Notes under the pieces: generated by a model | Database searches by the model: none | The model's input: the letters and a program-made list of their open reading frames with translations, nothing else | What the model was told of the DNA's origin: nothing | In this document: in pieces, positions 28,168 to 57,220 of the stretch | Numbering within the stretch: the stretch's first letter is position 1 | Layout: the number at the start of each line of letters is the position of its first letter | Program-made: the position numbers and the translations under genes | Source: Catellatospora paridis | GTDB lineage: Bacteria; Actinomycetota; Actinomycetes; Mycobacteriales; Micromonosporaceae | Direction: 5' to 3' | Assembly: GCF_009720365.1 (NCBI RefSeq) | Contig: NZ_WBZD01000016.1 | Location: 186,001-250,000 of the forward strand | DNA: 64,000 nucleotides

Positions 28168-28428
28168 GTGGCCAGCGTCGCCGAGGTCAAAGCGGCCATC
28201 GATGCCGCGATGCTGCATGTGCAGGAAGGCCAGGACGCGGTCCGTTCCGCCAACGACCGGCTCGGTGAGGCTCAGCTCAGCCTCGCCACCGCGGTCGAGG
28301 GCTCCGGGCACGAGGCCGTCACCGCCGCGCAGGCCGCACTCGCCCAGGCCGCCTCGGAACTCGAGGAGTGCCTCACCGCGACGCTGCACGCGGTGGAGCA
28401 GGCCGAGTCGTACGTCGCGACGCTGTGA
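28168..28428 (+). CDS. Small all-helical protein (DUF6244-like), first gene of the FtsK-type cassette
   Basis: An 86-residue acidic protein with no membrane segment, predicted to form two long amphipathic helices separated by a turn at GSGHEAV near the middle. Size and hairpin layout are like WXG100 proteins, but no WxG or YxxxD/E motif is present. The GTG start has GGAGG 4 nt upstream. It lies just upstream of the ATPase operon, joined to the next gene by the SERSER-type linker at 28437-28523. Function unknown; a partner or substrate of the ATPase machine is possible (inference). Confidence 0.7.
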   Translation: MASVAEVKAAIDAAMLHVQEGQDAVRSANDRLGEAQLSLATAVEGSGHEAVTAAQAALAQAASELEECLTATLHAVEQAESYVATL

Positions 28429-28436
28429 GCGCCCAC

Positions 28437-28523
28437 ATGAGCGAGCGTAGCGAGCGAATCAGTCGGCACAGGTCGGCTCATGTCGTCGTCGGTGACGAGC
28501 GCAGCGAGGAGGCGACGGCATGA
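28437..28523 (+). repeat. R3 linker repeat, long variant (28-codon mini-ORF)
   Basis: Encodes MSERSERI at its start and GDERSEEATA at its end, with a 39-nt variable centre. Its TGA overlaps the downstream ATG (ATGA) and its GAGGAG can act as the ribosome binding site. It starts 8 nt after the upstream stop, unlike the three 72-nt copies that overlap it. Confidence 0.85.
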
Positions 28524-29530
28524 GCCTCGTTCAAGATCTTGCCGATCAGTTGCGGGTCGCCCGCGAGGAACTGCCCCTGCCGCAGGTCTCCGCCGCCGCC
28601 GAGCGCCTGCGCAGCGCCACCGGGCTGCTGGCCTGGGTGCTGCACCACAGCGCGACCCCGGTCAGCGTGCCCGACCTGAGCCGCGCCGTCGAGCGCCTGG
28701 ACCACGCCGCCGCCGCGCTGCGCGTCGCCCAGGACCGCCTCGACGAGTACGCGCTGGCGCTGGGCATGCCCGCCGACACCCACGCCCGCCACGACGAGGG
28801 CTGGCCGGCCGCCGTGCCTACCCAGGCCCCGCGCGGCGAGGTCAGCGGCTCCGGCGACTGCCGGCTGGCCGACTGGTGGGGCGAGCGGATCGCCGCGCTG
28901 ACCGGCGAGTCCTTCTCCGCGTCCACGCTCACCGGCGACCGTGCCGACGCCGCGCAGTCCAGCGCCGAGCTGCTGCGCCGCTGCGTACAGGCGGCACACG
29001 ACGGCGACCGCAGGCGGCTGCACCGGCACCTGGCCGCGGCGGGTCCTGCCGTCGGCCTGGGCCTGGCCGCGATCGCGCCGCCGCTGCTGCGCCACCTCGC
29101 CGCCGACCTGGTCGGCTACCCGCCGCGACTGGAGGATCTGGCCCGGGTGCGCCGGGCGGCCCTGCCGCTGCCCGCGGAGCTGCTGCCGCAGCTGCCCGCC
29201 GAGGCGGCCGAGGAGATCGTGGCGCGGGTCTGCCACACCTCGCCCCAGCGCACCGCCGACCGCCCGCCCACCCACCCGGTGGACGCCGCCACCGCCGCCG
29301 CGCTGCTGGTCGCCGCGCTGCTGCGGGCCAACGGCCGGGCAGCCGACGAGCTGAACCAGATCATCGAGGCCGAACGGGCCGCCGCCGGGGCCGCCCAGCA
29401 GCGGGCCACGGAACGGGCCGAGGCCCACCGGGCCGCGCTGCGTATCACCGACAGCGGCCGCCGCCGCTCCGCCGTCGACGAACTGGGCCGCGTCACGCAG
29501 TCCACGGCTCGCCGCCGCAGCGGTGGCTGA
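28520..29530 (+). CDS. Hypothetical protein of the FtsK-type cassette
   Basis: A 336-residue soluble protein without recognisable domains. The N-terminal 100 residues are helical and coiled-coil-like (LADQLRVAREEL, AVERLDHAAAALRVAQDRL). A Trp-containing segment DWWGERIAALTGESFSAS follows at about residue 118, the rest is helical and Leu/Ala-rich, and a last coiled coil is near residues 270-310. The start overlaps the mini-ORF stop, and its 3' end overlaps the ATPase gene by 8 nt, so it is translated together with that gene. Probably an accessory subunit of the same machine. Confidence 0.75.
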   Translation: MSLVQDLADQLRVAREELPLPQVSAAAERLRSATGLLAWVLHHSATPVSVPDLSRAVERLDHAAAALRVAQDRLDEYALALGMPADTHARHDEGWPAAVPTQAPRGEVSGSGDCRLADWWGERIAALTGESFSASTLTGDRADAAQSSAELLRRCVQAAHDGDRRRLHRHLAAAGPAVGLGLAAIAPPLLRHLAADLVGYPPRLEDLARVRRAALPLPAELLPQLPAEAAEEIVARVCHTSPQRTADRPPTHPVDAATAAALLVAALLRANGRAADELNQIIEAERAAAGAAQQRATERAEAHRAALRITDSGRRRSAVDELGRVTQSTARRRSGG

Positions 29531-32258
29531 GCAGGACGCCGCGACTGCGCCGACCAGCCGAGGGATCGTCGCGGCGGTACGCAGGGAACTGGCCGCGGCC
29601 CGGCACGCCGCCCGCGCCTCGCTGGCGGCCACCGCGGCTGCTCGGGCCGCCGCACTCGCGCAGCTCGACGCCGTCCGGCTGTCCGCCCCCAAACGGCGCG
29701 ACGAGCTGCTGTCCACGCGCGACAAGACCCTGGCCGAGGCACGGGCCCGCCGCGAGCGGGAGACCGCGAAACTCGGCCGGGGCCTGCTCGGGCTCGCCGA
29801 GGCGGCCGCGCCGGGCACCGCGGGCAGCCCGTGGGCGTCGTGGCGGCCCGGCATGCGGCCCGAGCCGCAGGCCGGACTCACCCCCGGACTGCTGCGGATC
29901 GGCTCGCTGGTGCAGGAACCCGCCCCGAACGTGCCCGTCCCGGCCCTGGTGCCGCTGCTGGACACCGCGCACCTGAGCGTGTCCGGCGACGGTGCGGCCG
30001 CGGTGGACGCCCTGATCGGGGCGATGCTGCTGCGCGCGCTGGCGTCGGTGCCGCCCGGTTCGCTGCGGATCAGCGTGTACGACCCGGGCCGTCTCGGCGG
30101 CGCGCTGGCCGGGCTCGCCCCGCTGGCCCCGGCGGGCCTGATCTCGTACCTCGGGCCGGGCGGGCTCGCCCCGCTGCTCGACGACCTCGCCGAGCAGATC
30201 CGCCGCATCAACGAGAACGTGCTCGGCGGGGTCTACCTGAGCGTGGCCGAACTCGCCGCGGAGACCGGCCGCCGCCCGGAGCCGTGGCGGGTGGCGGTGC
30301 TGCTGGCCGACCCGAACGGCGCGGAGCTGTCCAAGGCCGAGCGCGCCCAGCTCGACCGGGTCGCCCGCACCGGCGTCGCGGCCGGCGTACACCTGATCAG
30401 CCGGGGTTTCGAGCTCGCCGCCGACACCGACGTGGAGACGATCGCGATCCGGGCCAACGGCACCGCGCGGACCAGCCTCACCGGCGAGATCCCGGTGCGG
30501 CTGGACGCCCCACCCGGCGCGGCCCTGGTCACCGGGGTCTGCCGGGCGCTCGCCGAGCAGGCCACCGCCGGTCCGCCGCCGGTGCCGTTCGCCGCGCTGC
30601 TGCCCGACGAGATCTGGCAGCAGTCCTCGGCCGAGTCGCTGCGCGCGCCGATCGGCGAGGGCACCGACGGCCGGCTGGTGGAACTGGTGCTCGGTGACGA
30701 TCCGCCGCACGCCCTGATCGGCGGCCCGTCCGGCTCGGGCAAGACGAACCTGATCTACTGCTGGCTGGCCGCGCTGGCCACCCGCTACTCCCCCGGCGAG
30801 CTGTCGCTGTACCTGCTGGACTTCAAGGAGGGCGTGTCCTTCGCCCGCTTCGCCCCCGGCACCCGCGACCCCAGCTGGCTGCCGCAGGTGCGGCTGGTCG
30901 GCGTCAACGTCAACGGCGATCGGGAGTTCGGCCTGGCCCTGCTGCGGCACCTGGCCGAGGAGCTCAAGCGCCGGGCGGCCGCCGCCAAGCAGCATGAGGC
31001 GACCAAGCTCGCCGAGCTGCGCGCCGAGGATCCGGCCGGCAACTGGCCGCGCATCGTCGCCGTCATCGACGAGTTCCAGGTGCTGCTGGGCGCGCGCGAC
31101 GCGGTGACCAGCGAGGCCGTGGACCTGCTGGAGGACCTGGCCCGCCGGGGCCGCTCGCAGGGCATCCACCTGGTGCTGGCCAGCCAGGACGTGTCCGGCA
31201 TCGAGGCGCTGTGGGGCCGCTCCGGCCTGGTCTCGCAGTTCACGCTGCGCATCGCGCTGCCCAAGGCGCGCCGCATCCTGTCCGATGTGAACCTGGCCGC
31301 CGAGCTGATCCCGCGCTGCCACGCCGTGGTCAACGCCGACTCGGGCGTGCCCTCGGCGAACACCATCGTGCGCCTGCCCGACGCGGGCGACCGCGCGACC
31401 TGGCTCGGGCTGCAGGAGCAGTTGTGGTCGGCCCGGCCCGACGGTGCCGAACCGCCGCGCCTGTTCGACGGCGACTCCCGCCCGCTGTTCCCGCTGCTGC
31501 CGCCGCCGCCCGCGCCGGAGCTGCCCGCCGCGGTGGGCGCGGTGGCCCTGCTCGGCGAGACCATCGACGTCGCGGGCCGCCCCGCGACGCTGCGGCTGAA
31601 CCGCGCGCCCGGCCGCAACCTCGCCGTGCTCGGCACCCGCGCCGACGAGGCCTGCGCGGTGCTGCTCGCCGCCGGGCACGCCCTGGGCAGCCAGCACACC
31701 TCCGGCTCGGCCCGGTTCAGCGTGCTGTGCCTGGACTCCGACGCGACCACGCCCGCGAAGTCGCTGCACGCGGTGCTCGACGCCCGCCACCGCTGCGACT
31801 GGTACGACGCCGACGGCGTCACCGCCCTGCTGGCCGAACTCGCCGAGAACACCGGGGAGGGCCGCGGTGACGGCGAGGTCCCCGCTCCCCCGCACTACGT
31901 GTTCGCCTTCGCGCTGGACGCGGTCGCCGCCCGGCTGGCCGCCAAGCCCGGACCGGGCCTGCCCAGCGGCCACGAGTTGCTGCGCACCGTGTTGGCGCGG
32001 GGCCCCGAGCGGCGCACCCATGTGCTCGGCTGGTGGCGTACGGTCGCCCGGCTGCGCGACGACCTCGGCGGTCCCGGCGCCCGATTCGACGCGATCGGCG
32101 CCTGGGTGGCGCTCGACGTGCACGGGCCCGAGCTGTCCGCGCTCTACCCGCAGCCCGGCGGCCCGGCCTGGTTCCCACGGCTCAACCGAGCCCTGCACTT
32201 CGACCGCGCGGTGCACCACCGCGCGCAGATCATCATCCCGTACGAGGTGGCCCCGTGA
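29523..32258 (+). CDS. FtsK/SpoIIIE-domain ATPase with three RecA-like modules
   Basis: A 911-residue protein. Residues 1-90 are a coiled coil. About 110-330 look like a degenerate ATPase module (HLSVSGDGAAAVDALIGAML, without Walker A lysine). About 370-640 form the active module: Walker A GGPSGSGKTN with Lys407, Walker B IVAVIDEF near Asp516, then RRGRSQGIHLVLASQD. About 670-911 form a second degenerate module (RNLAVLGTRADEACAVLL). Several RecA-like domains, only one with intact motifs, recall EccC of type VII secretion, though no membrane helices are present here; those are in the next gene (GTGA overlap). It is not the classical FtsK translocase: the gamma domain is absent. Role unknown. 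Confidence 0.8.
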   Translation: MAEQDAATAPTSRGIVAAVRRELAAARHAARASLAATAAARAAALAQLDAVRLSAPKRRDELLSTRDKTLAEARARRERETAKLGRGLLGLAEAAAPGTAGSPWASWRPGMRPEPQAGLTPGLLRIGSLVQEPAPNVPVPALVPLLDTAHLSVSGDGAAAVDALIGAMLLRALASVPPGSLRISVYDPGRLGGALAGLAPLAPAGLISYLGPGGLAPLLDDLAEQIRRINENVLGGVYLSVAELAAETGRRPEPWRVAVLLADPNGAELSKAERAQLDRVARTGVAAGVHLISRGFELAADTDVETIAIRANGTARTSLTGEIPVRLDAPPGAALVTGVCRALAEQATAGPPPVPFAALLPDEIWQQSSAESLRAPIGEGTDGRLVELVLGDDPPHALIGGPSGSGKTNLIYCWLAALATRYSPGELSLYLLDFKEGVSFARFAPGTRDPSWLPQVRLVGVNVNGDREFGLALLRHLAEELKRRAAAAKQHEATKLAELRAEDPAGNWPRIVAVIDEFQVLLGARDAVTSEAVDLLEDLARRGRSQGIHLVLASQDVSGIEALWGRSGLVSQFTLRIALPKARRILSDVNLAAELIPRCHAVVNADSGVPSANTIVRLPDAGDRATWLGLQEQLWSARPDGAEPPRLFDGDSRPLFPLLPPPPAPELPAAVGAVALLGETIDVAGRPATLRLNRAPGRNLAVLGTRADEACAVLLAAGHALGSQHTSGSARFSVLCLDSDATTPAKSLHAVLDARHRCDWYDADGVTALLAELAENTGEGRGDGEVPAPPHYVFAFALDAVAARLAAKPGPGLPSGHELLRTVLARGPERRTHVLGWWRTVARLRDDLGGPGARFDAIGAWVALDVHGPELSALYPQPGGPAWFPRLNRALHFDRAVHHRAQIIIPYEVAP

Positions 32259-35116: not shown

Positions 35117-35122
35117 TATGGT
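35117..35122 (+). promoter_or_regulatory. -10 box of the ABC transporter operon at 35130
   Basis: TATGGT is followed by 7 nt and GTG at 35130, a leaderless arrangement. This decides for the GTG over the in-frame ATG overlapping the box. Confidence 0.5.
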
Positions 35123-35129
35123 GCCGGGT

Positions 35130-35993
35130 GTGACTCACGAAGAGCTGGCGATCAGCGTTTCCGGGCTGCGGAAGTCCTATGCGGACAACGTCGCCGTCGC
35201 GGGGGTCGACCTGGCCGTGCCGCCGGGCGAGGTTTTCGCCCTGCTGGGCCCCAACGGGGCCGGCAAGACCACTACCGTGGAGATCCTGGAGGGGTTCCGC
35301 ACCCGCGACTCCGGCCAGGTGTCCGTGCTCGGCATCGACCCGGCCAAGGCCGACCGCGACTGGCGTCGCCGGGTCGGCATCGTGCTGCAGGGCACCGGCG
35401 AGTTCGACGAGCTCAAGGTGCACGAGGTGGTACGCCACTTCGCCCGCTTCTATCCCCACCCGGCCGACCCCGACGAGGTCATCGAGCGGGTCGGGCTGAG
35501 CGAGAAGGCGAACTCGCGCACGCACACCCTCTCCGGCGGCCAGAAGCGCCGCCTGGACGTGGCGCTGGGCATCATCAGCCAGCCCGAGGTGCTGTTCCTC
35601 GACGAGCCGACGACGGGCTTCGACCCGGCCGCCCGGCGCGAGTTCTGGGACCTGATCCGCCAGCTCTCGCACACCGGCACCACCATCCTGCTGACCACGC
35701 ACTACCTGGACGAGGCCGAGGCGCTCGCGGACCGGGTCGGCGTGATCGCCCGCGGCACCATGATCGCCGTGTCGACCCCCGCGGAGCTGGGCGGTCGGCA
35801 CCTGGCCACGGCCACGGTGAGCTGGCGCGACGAGGGCGGGCCGCGCAGCGAGGAGACCGACCGGCCCACCGAGGTGGTGCAGCGGCTGGCCGCCTCGTTC
35901 GGCGGCGAGGTGCCGGAACTGACCGTCACCCGGCCCACGCTGGAGGACGTCTACCTGAAGATGATCGGCGAGAACGGGCAGGAGCCGGCGTGA
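35130..35993 (+). CDS. ABC-2-type exporter ATP-binding protein
   Basis: A 287-residue ATPase of the DrrA/CcmA-like exporter class. Walker A is GPNGAGKTTT, the signature LSGGQKRRLD, Walker B VLFLDEPTTGFD, switch LTTHYLDEAEAL. The C-terminal 70 residues are the DrrA-type regulatory extension ending in TRPTLEDVYLKMIGENG. It is coupled through the 72-nt R3 linker to a permease. Likely drug, lipid or polysaccharide efflux; substrate unknown. Confidence 0.9.
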   Translation: MTHEELAISVSGLRKSYADNVAVAGVDLAVPPGEVFALLGPNGAGKTTTVEILEGFRTRDSGQVSVLGIDPAKADRDWRRRVGIVLQGTGEFDELKVHEVVRHFARFYPHPADPDEVIERVGLSEKANSRTHTLSGGQKRRLDVALGIISQPEVLFLDEPTTGFDPAARREFWDLIRQLSHTGTTILLTTHYLDEAEALADRVGVIARGTMIAVSTPAELGGRHLATATVSWRDEGGPRSEETDRPTEVVQRLAASFGGEVPELTVTRPTLEDVYLKMIGENGQEPA

Positions 35994-36061
35994 GCGAGCG
36001 CAGCGAGCGAGCAATGTCATCGGTCGATGCCGTCGACGAGCGCAGCGAGGAGATGGCATGA
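35990..36061 (+). repeat. R3 linker repeat (72 nt, 23-codon mini-ORF, GTG start)
   Basis: GTGA overlaps the upstream stop and ATGA the downstream start. The encoded peptide begins MSERSERAM and ends VDERSEEMA. The core GAGCGCAGCGAG occurs twice, the second followed by GAG to form a ribosome binding site. Confidence 0.9.
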
Positions 36062-36918
36062 GCGCGTTGGCCACCGAGCAGGAAGCGGCGCGGCCCGCCG
36101 TGCGGCAGGCGGGCGGGCTCAGCCTGGCCCTGGCGCAGGGCGGGATCGAGTTCAAGCAGTTCGTGCGTACGCGCGAGTCTTTGGTCTTCACGCTGCTCTT
36201 CCCCGTGATGCTGATGCTGATCTTCGGGTCGATCTTCGGCAGCGTGATCATCACGCCGGAGGGCGAAGTCCCCGCGGTGACCCTGTCGCAGTACTTCGTC
36301 ACCGGCATGATCGCCTCGGGCATCATGGCCACCGGTTTCCAGAACCTGGCCATCACCATCCCCATCGAGCGGGACCGGGGAGTGCTCAAGCGCTACCGCG
36401 GCACGCCCATGCCGAAGTGGGTCTTCTTCGCCGGCAAGATCCTGTGCGTGGCGGCGCTCGCGTTCATCGCCGTCGTCCTGCTGCTGGGCGTCGCGGTGGC
36501 CCTCTACGACCTGCGGCTGCCCGACACCGGGCAGAAGTGGTTCACCTTCGGCTGGGTCAGCGTGCTCGGCCTGATCGCCTGCACGCTGTGCGGCATCGCC
36601 TTCTCCGGCGTCGCGAAGACCGGCCGCTCCGGGCCCGCCGTGGTCACCCCGATCGCGCTGATCCTGCAGTTCACCTCGGGCGTGTTCTTCGAGTACAAGG
36701 ACCTGCCGCACTGGATGCAGCAGTTCGCCGCGCTGTTCCCGCTCAAGTGGATGTGCCAGGGCCTGCGCAGCGTGTTCCTGCCCGAGTCGTTCGCCAGCCA
36801 GGAGGTCGCCGGCTCGTTCGAGCTGGGCCGGGTCGCCCTGGTGCTCGCCGCCTGGTGTGTCGGTGGCCTGATCCTGTGCCTGGTCGGCTTCCGCTGGACC
36901 ACCAAGCGGGAAGGCTGA
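36058..36918 (+). CDS. ABC-2-type exporter permease
   Basis: A 286-residue permease with six predicted helices and cytoplasmic termini. The N-terminal amphipathic part FKQFVRTRESLVFTLLFPVML, the conserved MATGFQNLAITIPIERDRGV before helix 3 and GVFFEYKDLPHWMQQFAALF near helix 5-6 are typical of ABC2_membrane/DrrB-type proteins. Its start overlaps the R3 mini-ORF stop. It pairs with the preceding ATPase. Confidence 0.88.
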   Translation: MSALATEQEAARPAVRQAGGLSLALAQGGIEFKQFVRTRESLVFTLLFPVMLMLIFGSIFGSVIITPEGEVPAVTLSQYFVTGMIASGIMATGFQNLAITIPIERDRGVLKRYRGTPMPKWVFFAGKILCVAALAFIAVVLLLGVAVALYDLRLPDTGQKWFTFGWVSVLGLIACTLCGIAFSGVAKTGRSGPAVVTPIALILQFTSGVFFEYKDLPHWMQQFAALFPLKWMCQGLRSVFLPESFASQEVAGSFELGRVALVLAAWCVGGLILCLVGFRWTTKREG

Positions 36919-40698: not shown

Positions 40699-40734
40699 AT
40701 GGGCGGATCCGGCTCGCCGGGTCCGCACCGTGAC

Positions 40735-40740
40735 TACCGT
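40735..40740 (+). promoter_or_regulatory. -10 box of the ABC exporter gene at 40747
   Basis: TACCGT is followed by 6 nt and ATG. This supports ATG 40747 over the in-frame upstream ATG at 40699. Confidence 0.5.
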
Positions 40741-40746
40741 GTGTCC

Positions 40747-41718
40747 ATGGCCGCTGCGATCGTCGCGGAAGGGCTGGTCAAGCGGTACGGCTCGGTGACC
40801 GCCCTGGCCGGCCTGTCGCTGAGCGTGCCGGAGGGCACCGTGCTGGGCCTGCTCGGACCGGATCGGGCCGGCAAGACCACCGCAGTGCGGATCATGGCCA
40901 CCCTGCTGCGCCCCGACGGGGGCAGCTGCCTGGTCAACGGCGTCGACGTGCTGGCACACCCGCGCTGGGCACGGCAGGACATCGGCATGTGCGGGCAGCG
41001 CCCGGCCGTCGACGACTTCCTCACCGGCTTCGAGAACCTGGAGCAGCTCGGCCGGCTGCACCGGCTCGGCCGGCGGCGGGCCCGGGTGCGGGCCGAGGAG
41101 CTGCTGGAGCGGTTCCACCTGAGCGAGGCGGCGCACCGGCCCGTGCACTGCTACCCGCCCGGCATGCGCCGTCGGCTCGACCTGGCCGGCGCGCTGGTGA
41201 CCGCACCGCCCGTGGTCCTGCTCGACGAGCCCACCGCGGGGCTGGACCAGCGCAGCCGGCTGGGCATCTGGGACGTGATCAGCGAGCGGGTGCGCGCCGG
41301 CACGACCCTGCTGCTGGCCACCCGGCACCTGGACGAGGCCGACGAACTCGCCGACCAGATCGTGGTGCTCGACCGGGGCCACGTGCTCACCCGCGGCACG
41401 CCGGAGGAGATCACCCGGCACATCGGCGGCGACCGGCTGCAGGTCGTGCTGGGCAACCGGGCCGAGACCCAGGTCGCCGAGGACATCCTGAACCGGGTCT
41501 GCGGCGGCCGGGCCGTGGTCTTCCTGGACCAGCACCTGGTCCAGGCGCCGGTCGTGGCGGGCACCCCGGCCCTGGTCGAGCTGGTGCGCCGGCTCGACGC
41601 GGCGGGCATCGAGCCGGTCGACATCGGCATCCACCGGGCCAGCCTCGACGACGTGTTCCGCAAGCTCACCGGCCAGGCCGCCACCCCCACCCTGGCCGAC
41701 GAGGAGGCCCGCGCATGA
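40747..41718 (+). CDS. DrrA-like ABC ATPase with deviating nucleotide motifs
   Basis: A 323-residue ATPase of the daunorubicin-resistance DrrA class. Walker A is GPDRAGKTTA (usually GPNGAGKTT) and still fits GxxxxGKT; the signature, usually LSGGMRRRLD, reads YPPGMRRRLD; Walker B LLDEPTAGLD and the DrrA-type C-terminal tail DDVFRKLTG are present. A changed ABC signature may reduce ATP hydrolysis. It is coupled to its permease through the 72-nt R3 linker. Confidence 0.87.
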   Translation: MAAAIVAEGLVKRYGSVTALAGLSLSVPEGTVLGLLGPDRAGKTTAVRIMATLLRPDGGSCLVNGVDVLAHPRWARQDIGMCGQRPAVDDFLTGFENLEQLGRLHRLGRRRARVRAEELLERFHLSEAAHRPVHCYPPGMRRRLDLAGALVTAPPVVLLDEPTAGLDQRSRLGIWDVISERVRAGTTLLLATRHLDEADELADQIVVLDRGHVLTRGTPEEITRHIGGDRLQVVLGNRAETQVAEDILNRVCGGRAVVFLDQHLVQAPVVAGTPALVELVRRLDAAGIEPVDIGIHRASLDDVFRKLTGQAATPTLADEEARA

Positions 41719-41786
41719 GCGAGCGCAGCGAGCGAATCATGGTTCTCCTCGATGCCGCCGACGAGCGCAGCGAGGAGAAGGCATGA
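41715..41786 (+). repeat. R3 linker repeat (72 nt, 23-codon mini-ORF)
   Basis: ATGA overlaps on both sides. The peptide starts MSERSERIM, has VLLDA in the variable centre and ends ADERSEEKA. It differs from the copy at 56367-56438 mainly in the 15-nt centre. Confidence 0.9.
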
Positions 41787-42577
41787 GCGAGCTGGCGGCG
41801 GCGGTGCAGGACGTGTGGGTCACGGCCCGGCGAGGGCTGCTGCGCGGCCGGCGGGAGCCGCGCCTGCTGGCGCTGCCCCTGCTGCAACCCGTGCTGTTCA
41901 TGCTGCTGTTCGGCGTGGTGCTGAGCGGCGTGGTCGCCGTGCCGGGAGTGGCCTCCTATCCGGGGTACCTGACGCCTGGCCTGCTGGTGCAGGCGGTCGC
42001 GATCACCGCCGGGCTGGCCGCGGTGGGCGTCGCGCAGGACGTGCGCCGGGGCATGGTCGACCGGTTCCGGACGCTGCCCGTGCGCGCGTCCGCGGTGCTG
42101 TTCGGGCGTACCGCGGCGGACCTGGTCCGGATCGCGATGACGGCGGCGGTCGCGGCGGCGGCGGGGGTGATCGCGGGCTGGCGCGTCCACAGCGGCCCCG
42201 CTGCGGCCGCGGCGGGGTTCCTGCTGGTCCTGACCTTCGGGTACGCCGTCACGTGGCTGTCCGTGGTCGTGGGGCTGTCCGTACGCGGTCCTGGCGCGGC
42301 CCGGGTGCTGGTGCCGGTGTGCCTGATCCCGTTGACGTTCGTGTCGAACGTGCTGGCGCCGCCGGACACCATGCCGTCGTGGCTGCGCCCGCTCGCCGAG
42401 GCGAACCCCGTCTCCGCCGTCGTCACGGCGCTGCGCCTGCTGTGGGGCAACGAACCCGCGGGTTCCGGCGCGACCCCGCCCTCGGCGTACCCCCTGGCTT
42501 TGACCTGGATCGCCGCGGCCCTGCTGCTCGCGATCCCGCTCGCCCTGCACCGCTACCGCCGCGCACCCGCGCCCTGA
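41783..42577 (+). CDS. ABC-2-type exporter permease (DrrB-like)
   Basis: A 264-residue permease with six predicted helices. RGLLRGRREPRLLALPLLQP before helix 1 and the cytoplasmic loop VAQDVRRGMVDRFRTLPVRA are the ABC2_membrane hallmark, and FVSNVLAPPDTMPSWLRPLA the region before the last helix. Translation start overlaps the R3 mini-ORF stop. It works with the preceding DrrA-like ATPase, probably in drug or lipid export. Confidence 0.88.
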   Translation: MSELAAAVQDVWVTARRGLLRGRREPRLLALPLLQPVLFMLLFGVVLSGVVAVPGVASYPGYLTPGLLVQAVAITAGLAAVGVAQDVRRGMVDRFRTLPVRASAVLFGRTAADLVRIAMTAAVAAAAGVIAGWRVHSGPAAAAAGFLLVLTFGYAVTWLSVVVGLSVRGPGAARVLVPVCLIPLTFVSNVLAPPDTMPSWLRPLAEANPVSAVVTALRLLWGNEPAGSGATPPSAYPLALTWIAAALLLAIPLALHRYRRAPAP

Positions 42578-55371: not shown

Positions 55372-56370
55372 ATGTCATTGGTGGAGGCCCGTGGGCTGAC
55401 GAAGATCTTCCGTCGGCCGGAGAAGGATCCGGGTCTTCGCGGCTCGCTGAAACATCTGGTGCAGCGGAGGTTCAAGGACTTCCGGGCGGTGGACGGCATC
55501 GACCTGTCCATCGAGGCGGGCGAATCGGTGGCGTACGTGGGGCCCAACGGCGCGGGCAAGTCGACGACGATCAAGCTGCTCACCGGCATCCTGGTGCCGA
55601 CCGCGGGCACGGTGCGGGTGGCCGGGGCCGAGCCGCACACCGACCGAATGGTCAACGCCCGCAACATCGGCGTGCTGTTCGGCCAGCGCACCCAGCTGTG
55701 GTGGGACCTGCCGGTCCGCGAGTCGCTGGCCCTGCTGCGCGACATGTACGACCTGAGCCCCGCCTTCTACAAGCAGCGCCTGGAACGCCTCGACGAGGTG
55801 CTCGGCCTCGCCGACCTGCTGCCCGTGGTGGCCCGCAAACTGTCGCTCGGCCAGCGCATGCGCGCCGACCTGGCCGCGGCACTGCTGCACCAGCCGAAGA
55901 TCGTCTACCTGGACGAGCCGACCATCGGGCTCGACATCTCGGTCAAGGACCGGGTCCGGCAGTTCCTGCGCGAGCTGCGCCAGGACGGCACCACGCTGAT
56001 GCTGACCACCCATGACCTGGGCGACATCGAGGACGTGTGCGAGCGGATCGTCATCATCGACGAGGGCCGCAAGATCTTCGACGGTCCGCTGGCGCAGATG
56101 AAGGACCGCTTCGCCCGGGTACGCCGGATGCACCTGCAGCTGGCCGAGCCGACCCCGGTCGAGAAGCTCGCCGAGCGGCTGCCCGACGTCGAGGTGATCG
56201 CGGGCGACAGCCCGACCGAGGTCACCGTCACCTTCGACCGGTTCACCCACACCGCCGGGCAGATCATCGCCGGGGTGCTGGACGTCGTCGAGGTCGGCGA
56301 ACTGCACCTGGACGAACCGGCCATCGAGGACGTGGTCCGCAAGGTCTACGCCGGGGAGCTGCTGCGATGA
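55372..56370 (+). CDS. ABC transporter ATP-binding protein
   Basis: A 332-residue ATPase: Walker A GPNGAGKSTTIKLLTG, signature LSLGQRMRADLA (the LSGGQ position reads LSLGQ, common in this subfamily), Walker B VYLDEPTIGLDISVKD, switch LTTHDLGDIED, then a C-terminal regulatory domain. The N-terminal insert FRRPEKDPGLRGSLKHLVQR is typical of ATPases that pair with DUF990-type (ABC2_membrane_6) permeases. The following two permease genes confirm it. Coupled by an R3 linker. Confidence 0.9.
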   Translation: MSLVEARGLTKIFRRPEKDPGLRGSLKHLVQRRFKDFRAVDGIDLSIEAGESVAYVGPNGAGKSTTIKLLTGILVPTAGTVRVAGAEPHTDRMVNARNIGVLFGQRTQLWWDLPVRESLALLRDMYDLSPAFYKQRLERLDEVLGLADLLPVVARKLSLGQRMRADLAAALLHQPKIVYLDEPTIGLDISVKDRVRQFLRELRQDGTTLMLTTHDLGDIEDVCERIVIIDEGRKIFDGPLAQMKDRFARVRRMHLQLAEPTPVEKLAERLPDVEVIAGDSPTEVTVTFDRFTHTAGQIIAGVLDVVEVGELHLDEPAIEDVVRKVYAGELLR

Positions 56371-56438
56371 GCGAGCGCAGCGAGCGAATCATGACCCCGG
56401 TCCATGCCGCCGACGAGCGCAGCGAGGAGAAGGCATGA
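56367..56438 (+). repeat. R3 linker repeat (72 nt, 23-codon mini-ORF)
   Basis: ATGA overlaps on both sides; the peptide begins MSERSERIM, has TPVHA in the centre and ends ADERSEEKA. Confidence 0.9.
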
Positions 56439-57220
56439 GGCCTTATCTGGGGCTGCTGCGGATGTCGACGCGACGCATCCTCACCTACCGGCTGAACTCG
56501 CTGATCCTGTGGATCGGTGGCGCGACCTTCCTCGCAGGCTCGCTCGCGGTGTGGCATGCACTGCTGTCTCAGGGCGCGATCGGCGGCTACGACTGGGACC
56601 AGATGAAGGCCTACCTGCTGGTGGGCTGGGCGACCGCGTCCATCGGCTCGGCGTACGGCGACTGGTGGATGGCCTCGCGCATCTTCGACGGCCACGTGGC
56701 CACCGACTTGACCAAGCCGCTGGACTACCAGTGGGCCCGGTTCAGCGAGCACATGGGCGGGCTGGCCACGGAGTTCATCGCGATCGCCATCGCGGCGACC
56801 GCGATCGTCACCTTCACCGGTGGGCTGGTGGTGCCCGGCCCGGGGCAGGCGCTGCTGTTCGCGGTGAGCTTCCTGCTGGTCGCGCCGCTGAAGTTCACCA
56901 TCGCGTACATCACCACGATGGCGTGCTTCTGGACGCAGAACTTCATGGGCGTCTCCTGGGCCAAGGACGCGGTCGTCACGCTGTTCTCCGGCGCGCTGAT
57001 CCCGCTGGCGCTGCTGCCGGCGTGGCTGGCGGGCCCGGCCGCGGTGCTGCCGTTCGCCAGCATCACCGCCACCCCCGCCGCGCTCTACCTGGGCCAGGCC
57101 ACCGGCTGGGAGGCGCTGCGGCTGCTGGCCGTGCAGGCCGCCTGGGTGCTGGTGCTGTGGTGGGGCGCCCGGCTCATCTGGCGGCGCGCACTGCGCGCCC
57201 TGACCGTCCACGGAGGCTGA
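56435..57220 (+). CDS. ABC-2 family permease (ABC2_membrane_6/DUF990-like), first subunit
   Basis: A 261-residue membrane protein with about six helices. It starts MRPYLGLLRMSTRRILTYRL, with the family motif GWATASIGSAYGDWWMASRI, then GHVATDLTKPLDYQWARF. The start overlaps the mini-ORF stop; the stop is 1 nt before the next permease GTG. It probably forms a heterodimeric channel with that permease. Confidence 0.85.
   Translation: MRPYLGLLRMSTRRILTYRLNSLILWIGGATFLAGSLAVWHALLSQGAIGGYDWDQMKAYLLVGWATASIGSAYGDWWMASRIFDGHVATDLTKPLDYQWARFSEHMGGLATEFIAIAIAATAIVTFTGGLVVPGPGQALLFAVSFLLVAPLKFTIAYITTMACFWTQNFMGVSWAKDAVVTLFSGALIPLALLPAWLAGPAAVLPFASITATPAALYLGQATGWEALRLLAVQAAWVLVLWWGARLIWRRALRALTVHGG

Follow-up and report, generated by a model that had tools for sequence, protein, structure and literature searches.

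A short repeat with an open mini-ORF inserts exactly at gene start codons in Catellatospora and many other actinomycetes

Results

A mini-ORF unit at four gene junctions

The window, that is, the whole 64,000-nt stretch of Catellatospora paridis DNA analysed here, contains four copies of a short unit located at gene junctions (Table 1). These copies had been listed in a preliminary description, and their positions were confirmed, as was the length of 72 nt for three of them, the copy at 28437-28523 measuring 87 nt. Pfam searches also agreed with the gene types given there: at three junctions an ABC transporter ATPase precedes an ABC-2 permease, and at the fourth a gene lacking any Pfam match is joined by an FtsK/SpoIIIE gene. 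Each copy was said to overlap the upstream stop with its own start, which is the case for copies 2, 3 and 4 but not for copy 1, where the TGA (28426-28428) lies 8 nt ahead of the ATG. The conserved ends of the mini-ORF read MSERSER and DERSEE.

The core GAGCGYAGCGAG was found eight times in the 64-kb window against 0.05 expected, a count reached in 0 of 100 shuffles, and this genome contains the 18-nt core GAGCGAGCGCAGCGAGCG 32 times but its backward reading not once. No Rfam match above the gathering score was obtained for window positions 28000-57500.

Table 1. Repeat units, neighbouring genes and predicted hairpins in the window
Feature	Position	Strand	Remarks
Copy 1	28437..28523	+	mini-ORF unit, 87 nt, 28 codons and a stop, ATGA at both ends, spacing 83
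Hairpin 2 of copy 1	28474..28527	+	predicted 16-bp stem over downstream ATG; -32.1 kcal/mol, z -4.53, 0/200 shuffles as good
Gene lacking a Pfam match, downstream of copy 1	28520..29530	+	FtsK/SpoIIIE gene at 29523-32258 comes next
ABC transporter ATPase, upstream of copy 2	35118..35993	+	PF00005; stop TGA within GTGA
Copy 2	35990..36061	+	mini-ORF unit, 72 nt, left GTGA, right ATGA, spacing 68
Hairpin 2 of copy 2 (ATGCC.../GGCAT)	36027..36059	+	downstream start codon in predicted stem; z -2.67, 4/200 shuffles as good
ABC-2 permease, downstream of copy 2	36058..36918	+	PF01061
ABC transporter ATPase, upstream of copy 3	40699..41718	+	PF00005
Copy 3 (copy under study)	41715..41786	+	mini-ORF MSERSERIMVLLDAADERSEEKA followed by a stop; 72 nt, spacing 68
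Hairpin 1 of copy 3	41715..41737	+	AT GA GC GA GC / GCA / GC GA GC GA AT; standard pairs plus putative tandem G.A steps
Hairpin 2 of copy 3 (ATGCC.../GGCAT)	41752..41784	+	cut-out folds so; z -0.51, 63/200 shuffles as good
Shine-Dalgarno-like GAGGAGAA of copy 3	41772..41779	+	ahead of downstream ATG at 41783
ABC-2 permease, downstream of copy 3	41783..42577	+	PF01061
ABC transporter ATPase, upstream of copy 4	55372..56370	+	PF00005
Copy 4	56367..56438	+	mini-ORF unit, 72 nt, spacing 68
Hairpin 2 of copy 4 (CATGCC.../GGCATG)	56403..56437	+	z -3.23, 0/200 shuffles as good
ABC-2 permease, downstream of copy 4	56435..57220	+	PF06182

Copy number and flanking genes in the genome and genus

A blastn search with one copy produced 53 matches in this genome (9.0 Mb, 35 contigs). 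From these core matches 46 units were extracted, seven without a clear start being dropped and four unit ends being corrected by hand, and their alignment (A1) was used to build a sequence profile (R1). The profile gave 153 matches in this genome at E <= 0.1, with partial and tandem units counted (150 candidates scored), and matches in all 11 genomes of the genus, with 8 to 87 in each at E <= 0.001 (79 candidates scored per genome). Exact matches to the 3' motif were present in at least 81 stretches, mainly in four Catellatospora species among the matches listed. Tandem 3' motifs were found four times at a 68-nt period in Catellatospora sichuanensis (L122), three times at 71 nt in L124 and L182 and three times at 74 nt in L184, and genome G004 also carries an array.

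The genes downstream of the 46 junctions of this genome matched 64 Pfam families. The commonest were ABC_tran (4 of 46), BPD_transp_2 (3), ABC2_membrane_2 (3), BPD_transp_1 (2) and ABC2_membrane (2), partly through identical genes. Transporters thus lead, yet most of the downstream genes are of other kinds, and the special tie to exporters proposed in the preliminary description was rejected as unsupported. Coupling within ABC transporter gene clusters is reported in an excerpt of one earlier paper (PMC3711429).

Distribution across the class

Across the class, 394 genomes from 138 genera were sampled. At E <= 1e-4, R1 had matches in 40 of these genomes and 19 of the genera, and a second profile built from diverse units (R2) had matches in 44 genomes and 22 genera. 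A second alignment (A2) comprised 69 diverse units, namely 61 of 72 distant ones and eight from this genome; the distant set was picked from the best R1 matches and is biased to Catellatospora-like units. The spacing between the two start codons is mostly 68-83 nt in the genus and 65 to 80 nt elsewhere.

In a large genus of the same order (g34, > 297 species, probably Mycobacterium), 90 of 297 genomes matched at E <= 0.01, many of them weakly. The best matches there form a subfamily of their own with 65-nt spacing, mostly at gene junctions; 16 of 24 of its units have at least six of seven stem pairs at the best position, a raw count without a shuffled baseline. A search of ten genomes of family f8 at E <= 0.5 yielded scores that look like chance, except for one match. 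In Streptomyces sp. CBMA123 one copy reads full length.

Partial forms were also seen. In the 11 Micromonospora and Plantactinospora loci inspected no 5' half was found by pattern, although one of them (L175) is maybe a diverged full unit. Seven Micromonospora loci (L134, L136, L146, L177, L190, L191 and L194) have the same 3' half-unit in the same context, directly preceding a 159-codon open frame (99 codons in L191); this half-unit may be an old unit retained as a ribosome-binding site. In family f41 the listed R1 matches of two genomes (G327 and G390) cover the 5' part of the model alone, at positions about 1-51, and perhaps represent a related element consisting of hairpin 1 alone. A search of phages with window copy 3 and a search of plasmids with one distant unit, each a single short query with the low-complexity filter on, returned no match.

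Empty and filled sites

Nineteen junctions were queried in five relatives with lower copy number, giving 75 rows, of which 30 were obtained as loci, 40 were fetched and five weak ones were dropped. Clean empty sites with exactly one (A/G)TGA were found at four junctions: j4, j6, j12 and j18. Four relatives (L265, L267, L268 and L269) are empty at j4, which corresponds to window position 56367, and have one ATGA there; five are empty at j6 and two at j18. At j12 three relatives are empty with GTGA, and the filled allele has GTGA at both ends. Three more filled/empty pairs were L084/L151, L030/L174 and L154/L085, and between rimI and tsaD some relatives have a bare GTGA overlap where others have a unit. 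The exception was j9 (L007), with GTGA in the empty relatives and GGCATGA on the left in the filled genome. Junctions j14 (extrapolated flank) and j17 (a relative with a possible remnant) were excluded from the empty-site count; no ortholog was found in the five relatives for the junctions at window position 41715 and at L045, and the remaining ones had diverged flanks or remnants, or were filled in the relatives compared.

Two further window copies were compared with related genomes. The junction of copy 2 is empty (GTGA) in G002 and occupied by another unit in G008, the difference being one unit. Units differing from one another are present at this ABC exporter junction (window position 35990) in three genomes, including L251 of G008 and L218 of G005, and it is empty in others, which is repeated insertion at one site. 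Among relatives with an ortholog of the copy 1 site, L257, L258 and L266 have no unit, while L217 and L222 hold a unit-like sequence that is shorter and of another kind, indicating that a single junction can be hit repeatedly.

The alleles compared show that units go in precisely at one (A/G)TGA and are then flanked by (A/G)TGA at both ends. The preliminary description had suspected a mobile or amplified module, and the empty orthologous sites and the copies throughout the genome support one that is amplified and evidently mobile.

Left and right ends agree beyond chance in a set of 159 units (see below): the combinations were ATGA/ATGA in 124, GTGA/ATGA in 18, GTGA/GTGA in 11, ATGA/GTGA in three, and three others once each, and none has a TTGA end. 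The first base of the right end and its internal partner were A-T in 109 cases, A-C in eight, G-C in eight, G-T in three and other in 20, and in G008 a unit sitting in a GTGA site ends in ATGA. The evidence falls on both sides between a pure 4-bp target duplication, favoured by the agreement of the ends, and a right end borne by the element, favoured by the covariation of the right base.

The frame is kept and the centre is free of stops

A total of 264 model matches gave the 159 unique units, for which both ends, 100-nt flanks and uniqueness were required. The start-to-start distances in frame were 68 nt (60 units), 71 (55), 74 (18), 77 (7), 80 (7) and 83 (1), showing that the centre, given as a constant 15 nt in the preliminary description, varies in length, mostly in 3-nt steps. 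The mini-ORF stop overlaps the next start in 148 of the 159 units and 11 are out of frame (binomial p = 8e-57, supposing independent units, although related copies make unit counts something other than counts of independent events). The same frame, with the mini-ORF stop over the next start, was found in 44 of the 46 units first extracted from this genome.

Neighbours were assigned for the 152 units with enough flank, genes being recognised from the length of the open frame and the G+C content of third codon positions, and not from annotation. The right end was a gene start in 124, another unit in 22 and something else in six, and a GGAG, GAGG or AGGA lies ahead of the right start in 148. Taken with the kept frame, these figures differ from what the preliminary description expected of a simple dispersed repeat, namely copies mostly outside junctions, in random frame or with indels not multiples of three. 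The left end was a gene stop in 70 units, a preceding unit in 39, within 100 nt of the end of a co-oriented gene in 24 and other in 19. Coupling to an upstream gene would therefore not be universal, since these last 19 have no co-oriented gene or unit within 100 nt upstream.

The hypervariable centre contains no in-frame stop in 1033 codons, whereas the two other frames, with 885 codons each, have 24 and 26 (Fisher 1.3e-10), and 146 of the 148 in-frame units are free of in-frame stops. Substitutions in the centre, counted in 88 nearest pairs, were spread over codon positions 1, 2 and 3 as 127, 121 and 127, and the codon changes comprised 358 non-synonymous and 108 synonymous ones. The absence of in-frame stops together with equal change at the three codon positions shows that reading through is kept while the residues are free. 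In other subfamilies both residues and lengths differ. As judged from these alignments, a kept frame and a stop-free centre go with a freely changing peptide over a wide taxonomic spread. The earlier suggestion that the peptide itself may be irrelevant, for which synonymous and non-synonymous changes were compared, is supported by the even substitutions, and a functional peptide was rejected on the same grounds.

Hairpins at both ends and compensatory changes

Two stems were proposed from the diverse units, a 5' stem (DT-GA-GC-GA-GC-loop-GC-GA-GC-GA-AY) and a 3' stem (TCAYGCC...GGCRTGA). Hairpin 1 of copy 3 would bury the start of the mini-ORF. When the 3' half of each window copy is cut out and folded, the downstream ATG falls within a stem in all four cases; three of these folds beat nearly all shuffles, but that of the copy at 41715 does not, and when this copy is folded as a whole unit the ATG is paired with another CATG of the unit. 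Among the four 3' stems that of the 87-nt copy 1 is the strongest, with arms that deviate from the consensus.

Pair covariation was 0.145 on A1, compared with 0.092 +/- 0.005 in shuffles, and 0.243 on A2, compared with 0.110 +/- 0.006, neither value being reached in 500 shuffles, which given the relatedness of the copies is no proof of independence. Sliding the partner by 1-3 columns lowered the covariation to 0.004-0.069, a control in which the proposed pairing is somewhat favoured because the structure was drawn from the same sequences. Two further measures stayed close to the shuffles: pairs changed on both sides numbered 11 on A2 against 9.9 expected (reached by 139 of 500 shuffles), and further pair types numbered 12 on A1 against 10.8 (reached by 45 of 500), and RNAalifold alone yielded weak structure.

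The first bases of the two (A/G)TGA ends vary with their internal partners. For the left base, counted with no row selection, the pairs were A-U 35, G-C 9, G-U 1 and other 1 on A1 (n = 46), and A-U 44, G-C 19, G-U 2, other 3 and gap 1 on A2 (n = 69). For the right base they were A-U 38, G-C 6, G-U 1 and other 1 on A1 (n = 46), where copy 28437, which supplies one of these six G-C pairs, is aligned out of register, and A-U 49, G-C 10, G-U 2 and other 8 on A2 (n = 69). A hairpin-1 pattern allowing C or T alone as the partner left 54 of 159 and 10 of 72 units unmatched, a selection from which the A1 and A2 counts are free. The left-base swap was seen in class families f16, f22, f27, f31, f33 and f41, and in f8 with two mismatches among four.

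In six A2 units G-C and A-U pairs take the place of the outer tandem G.A step of hairpin 1; the G.A pairing itself is putative, because both positions are non-standard pairs in 62 and 63 of the 69 A2 rows. The inner part of hairpin 2 is ragged in A2. Overall, the aligned units have ends predicted to pair, with compensatory changes.

Discussion

The four stretches in the window represent one short repeat, carried by many actinomycetes, whose insertion point is exactly the start codon of a gene. We consider it probable that this is a MIRU-like mobile repeat whose mini-ORF and hairpins hand ribosomes from gene to gene, which agrees for the most part with the translational-coupling module suggested in the preliminary description. 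A unit enters precisely at a gene start reading (A/G)TGA, often where an upstream stop and a downstream start overlap. Insertion at such a start would normally uncouple an operon; the unit would escape this through a mini-ORF open to coupling at either end, its Shine-Dalgarno-like site and its stems. The mini-ORF start can overlap the upstream stop, its own stop overlaps the next start, and a Shine-Dalgarno-like GAGGAG is carried along; with this open, overlapping mini-ORF and GAGGAG, an operon that has received a unit can remain coupled. A ribosome ending the first gene would re-start at the mini-ORF, translate 23 codons (28 in copy 1) and re-start at the second gene, the peptide itself being presumably without importance. 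The end hairpins would bury the RTG starts, so that free ribosomes initiate poorly and arriving ribosomes open the stem. We infer from these features that the mini-ORF is translated and coupled, that the hairpins act on RNA and not on DNA, and that the units transpose actively.

It is possible, although we hold the idea tentatively, that the element picks its target by pairing, with an internal T directing it to ATGA and an internal C to GTGA, so that a guide base reads the first base of the start codon. The match of the first bases fits guide-base targeting and compensatory change after insertion alike. If guide-base reading were true, this would be a mobile element that reads start codons and has spread through a whole bacterial class.

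The pairing of the target's first base with a base of the element would also be expected if the hairpins acted in single-stranded DNA. IS200/IS605 and REP elements are moved by Y1/HUH-type enzymes, and the units could be non-autonomous transposons moved in the same way, with (A/G)TGA as the cleavage site, the internal base as a guide, and the frame kept solely because out-of-frame insertions get lost. We regard this, the main rival reading, as unlikely: the stop-free variable centre points to translation. A Y1_Tnp match is present in six of the 11 genus genomes, which have more R1 matches than the others (Mann-Whitney p 0.022, n 6 vs 5), but G007, despite its 79 R1 matches, lacks a Y1 match, this genome has partial Y1 matches only, and no unit-like sequence was found at the nine Y1 loci (best E 0.63). 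Seven of these nine loci belong to repeated stretches, about 1.7-1.8 kb long, that form two groups and, with an OrfB/TnpB-type gene beside Y1 in L413 and L415 (one tested per group), look like ordinary IS605-type elements. The groups comprise L413, L416 and L420, and L414, L415, L419 and L421; L416 has an internal stop. For a Y1 transposase as the mobiliser these genomes give a weak correlation.

Tandem arrays and partial copies are common, 3' halves occur alone and the peptide changes freely, all of which would suit a plain dispersed repeat that spreads by recombination among copies and has no role, its position and frame marking where it is harmless. This seems quite improbable, because a harmless repeat needs neither paired stems nor an open frame after insertion, whereas stem pairs change on both sides across families and the frame is open even in units with wholly different centres. 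A functional small protein family (SERSER...DERSEE) might be read from the open frame and the conserved ends of the in-frame units, but it is highly improbable given the equal change at codon positions, the excess of non-synonymous changes, conserved residues that are those dictated by the hairpin sequences, and residues and lengths that differ in other subfamilies.

The reading of a mobile repeat that hands ribosomes from gene to gene draws on features absent from the preliminary description, namely hairpins with compensatory changes, a duplicated (A/G)TGA, the parallel with MIRUs and the class-wide spread. It also has practical consequences. In annotation a unit looks like a small MSERSER protein or falsely lengthens the gene that follows, and a repeat entering at starts with the coupling frame intact could serve as an expression part.

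Comparison with known systems

REP sequences and BIMEs are extragenic palindromes without a mini-ORF, known together with RAYT transposases. The present repeat is like REP/BIME, RAYT and IS200/IS605 systems in being a short dispersed hairpin sequence with a tetranucleotide adjoining the hairpin, but it differs from REP/BIME in its mini-ORF, and no cognate transposase was tied to its units.

Mycobacterial interspersed repetitive units (MIRUs) are about 46-101 bp long, lie dispersed between operon genes and insert at DTGA sites. They were reportedly first described by Supply et al. (1997, Mol Microbiol 26:991). We know of no account of how they move. The units described here are likewise dispersed between operon genes, being followed by a gene in 124 of 152 cases and by a unit in 22. 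Their mini-ORF ends overlap the neighbours (a gene on the right in 124 of 152, a gene stop on the left in 70 of 152), the empty sites read ATGA or GTGA with j9 as the sole exception, and tandem copies occur.

MIRUs, which were compared by description only, share with these units the character of short, apparently mobile repeats at start codons, with a unit ORF that overlaps the next gene by 4 nt. This overlap, and the presence of MIRUs in 'many mycobacteria', are given in an extract of PMC12548453. Tandem MIRU copies with 77-bp units are described in a section of PMC2453075, and a spacing of 77 is the commonest in our distant set. According to a 2014 paper, the MIRUs of the senX3-regX3 region are confined to M. 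leprae and the M. tuberculosis complex, and this region has promoter activity (PMC4213456). MIRUs have been described from mycobacteria, whereas the present repeat occurs in many actinomycete families, in Catellatospora and 22 of the 138 genera sampled in the class, a contrast that concerns name and range and not the way of working. Among literature titles and abstracts, with subscription papers mostly outside the search, no report of such repeats outside mycobacteria was found.

The mycobacterial coupled small ORFs of Shell et al. (2015) likewise end in the RTGA of the next gene (PMC4633059). Passages of that paper report that the RTGA overlap is over-represented and give ribosome occupancy data for the small ORFs; there these ORFs are on leaderless transcripts and, in those passages, are not presented as a repeat family, and the word MIRU does not occur in the text (PMC4633059).

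MIRUs form the basis of a standard typing method for tuberculosis. On the comparison made here the architecture of the present repeat is MIRU-like, and set against the MIRU descriptions it has, in addition, predicted hairpins with compensatory changes at both ends, an internally matched target base and an open frame. With MIRU architecture now in many other actinomycetes, together with filled and empty sites and covarying stems, mobility and coupling become directly testable.
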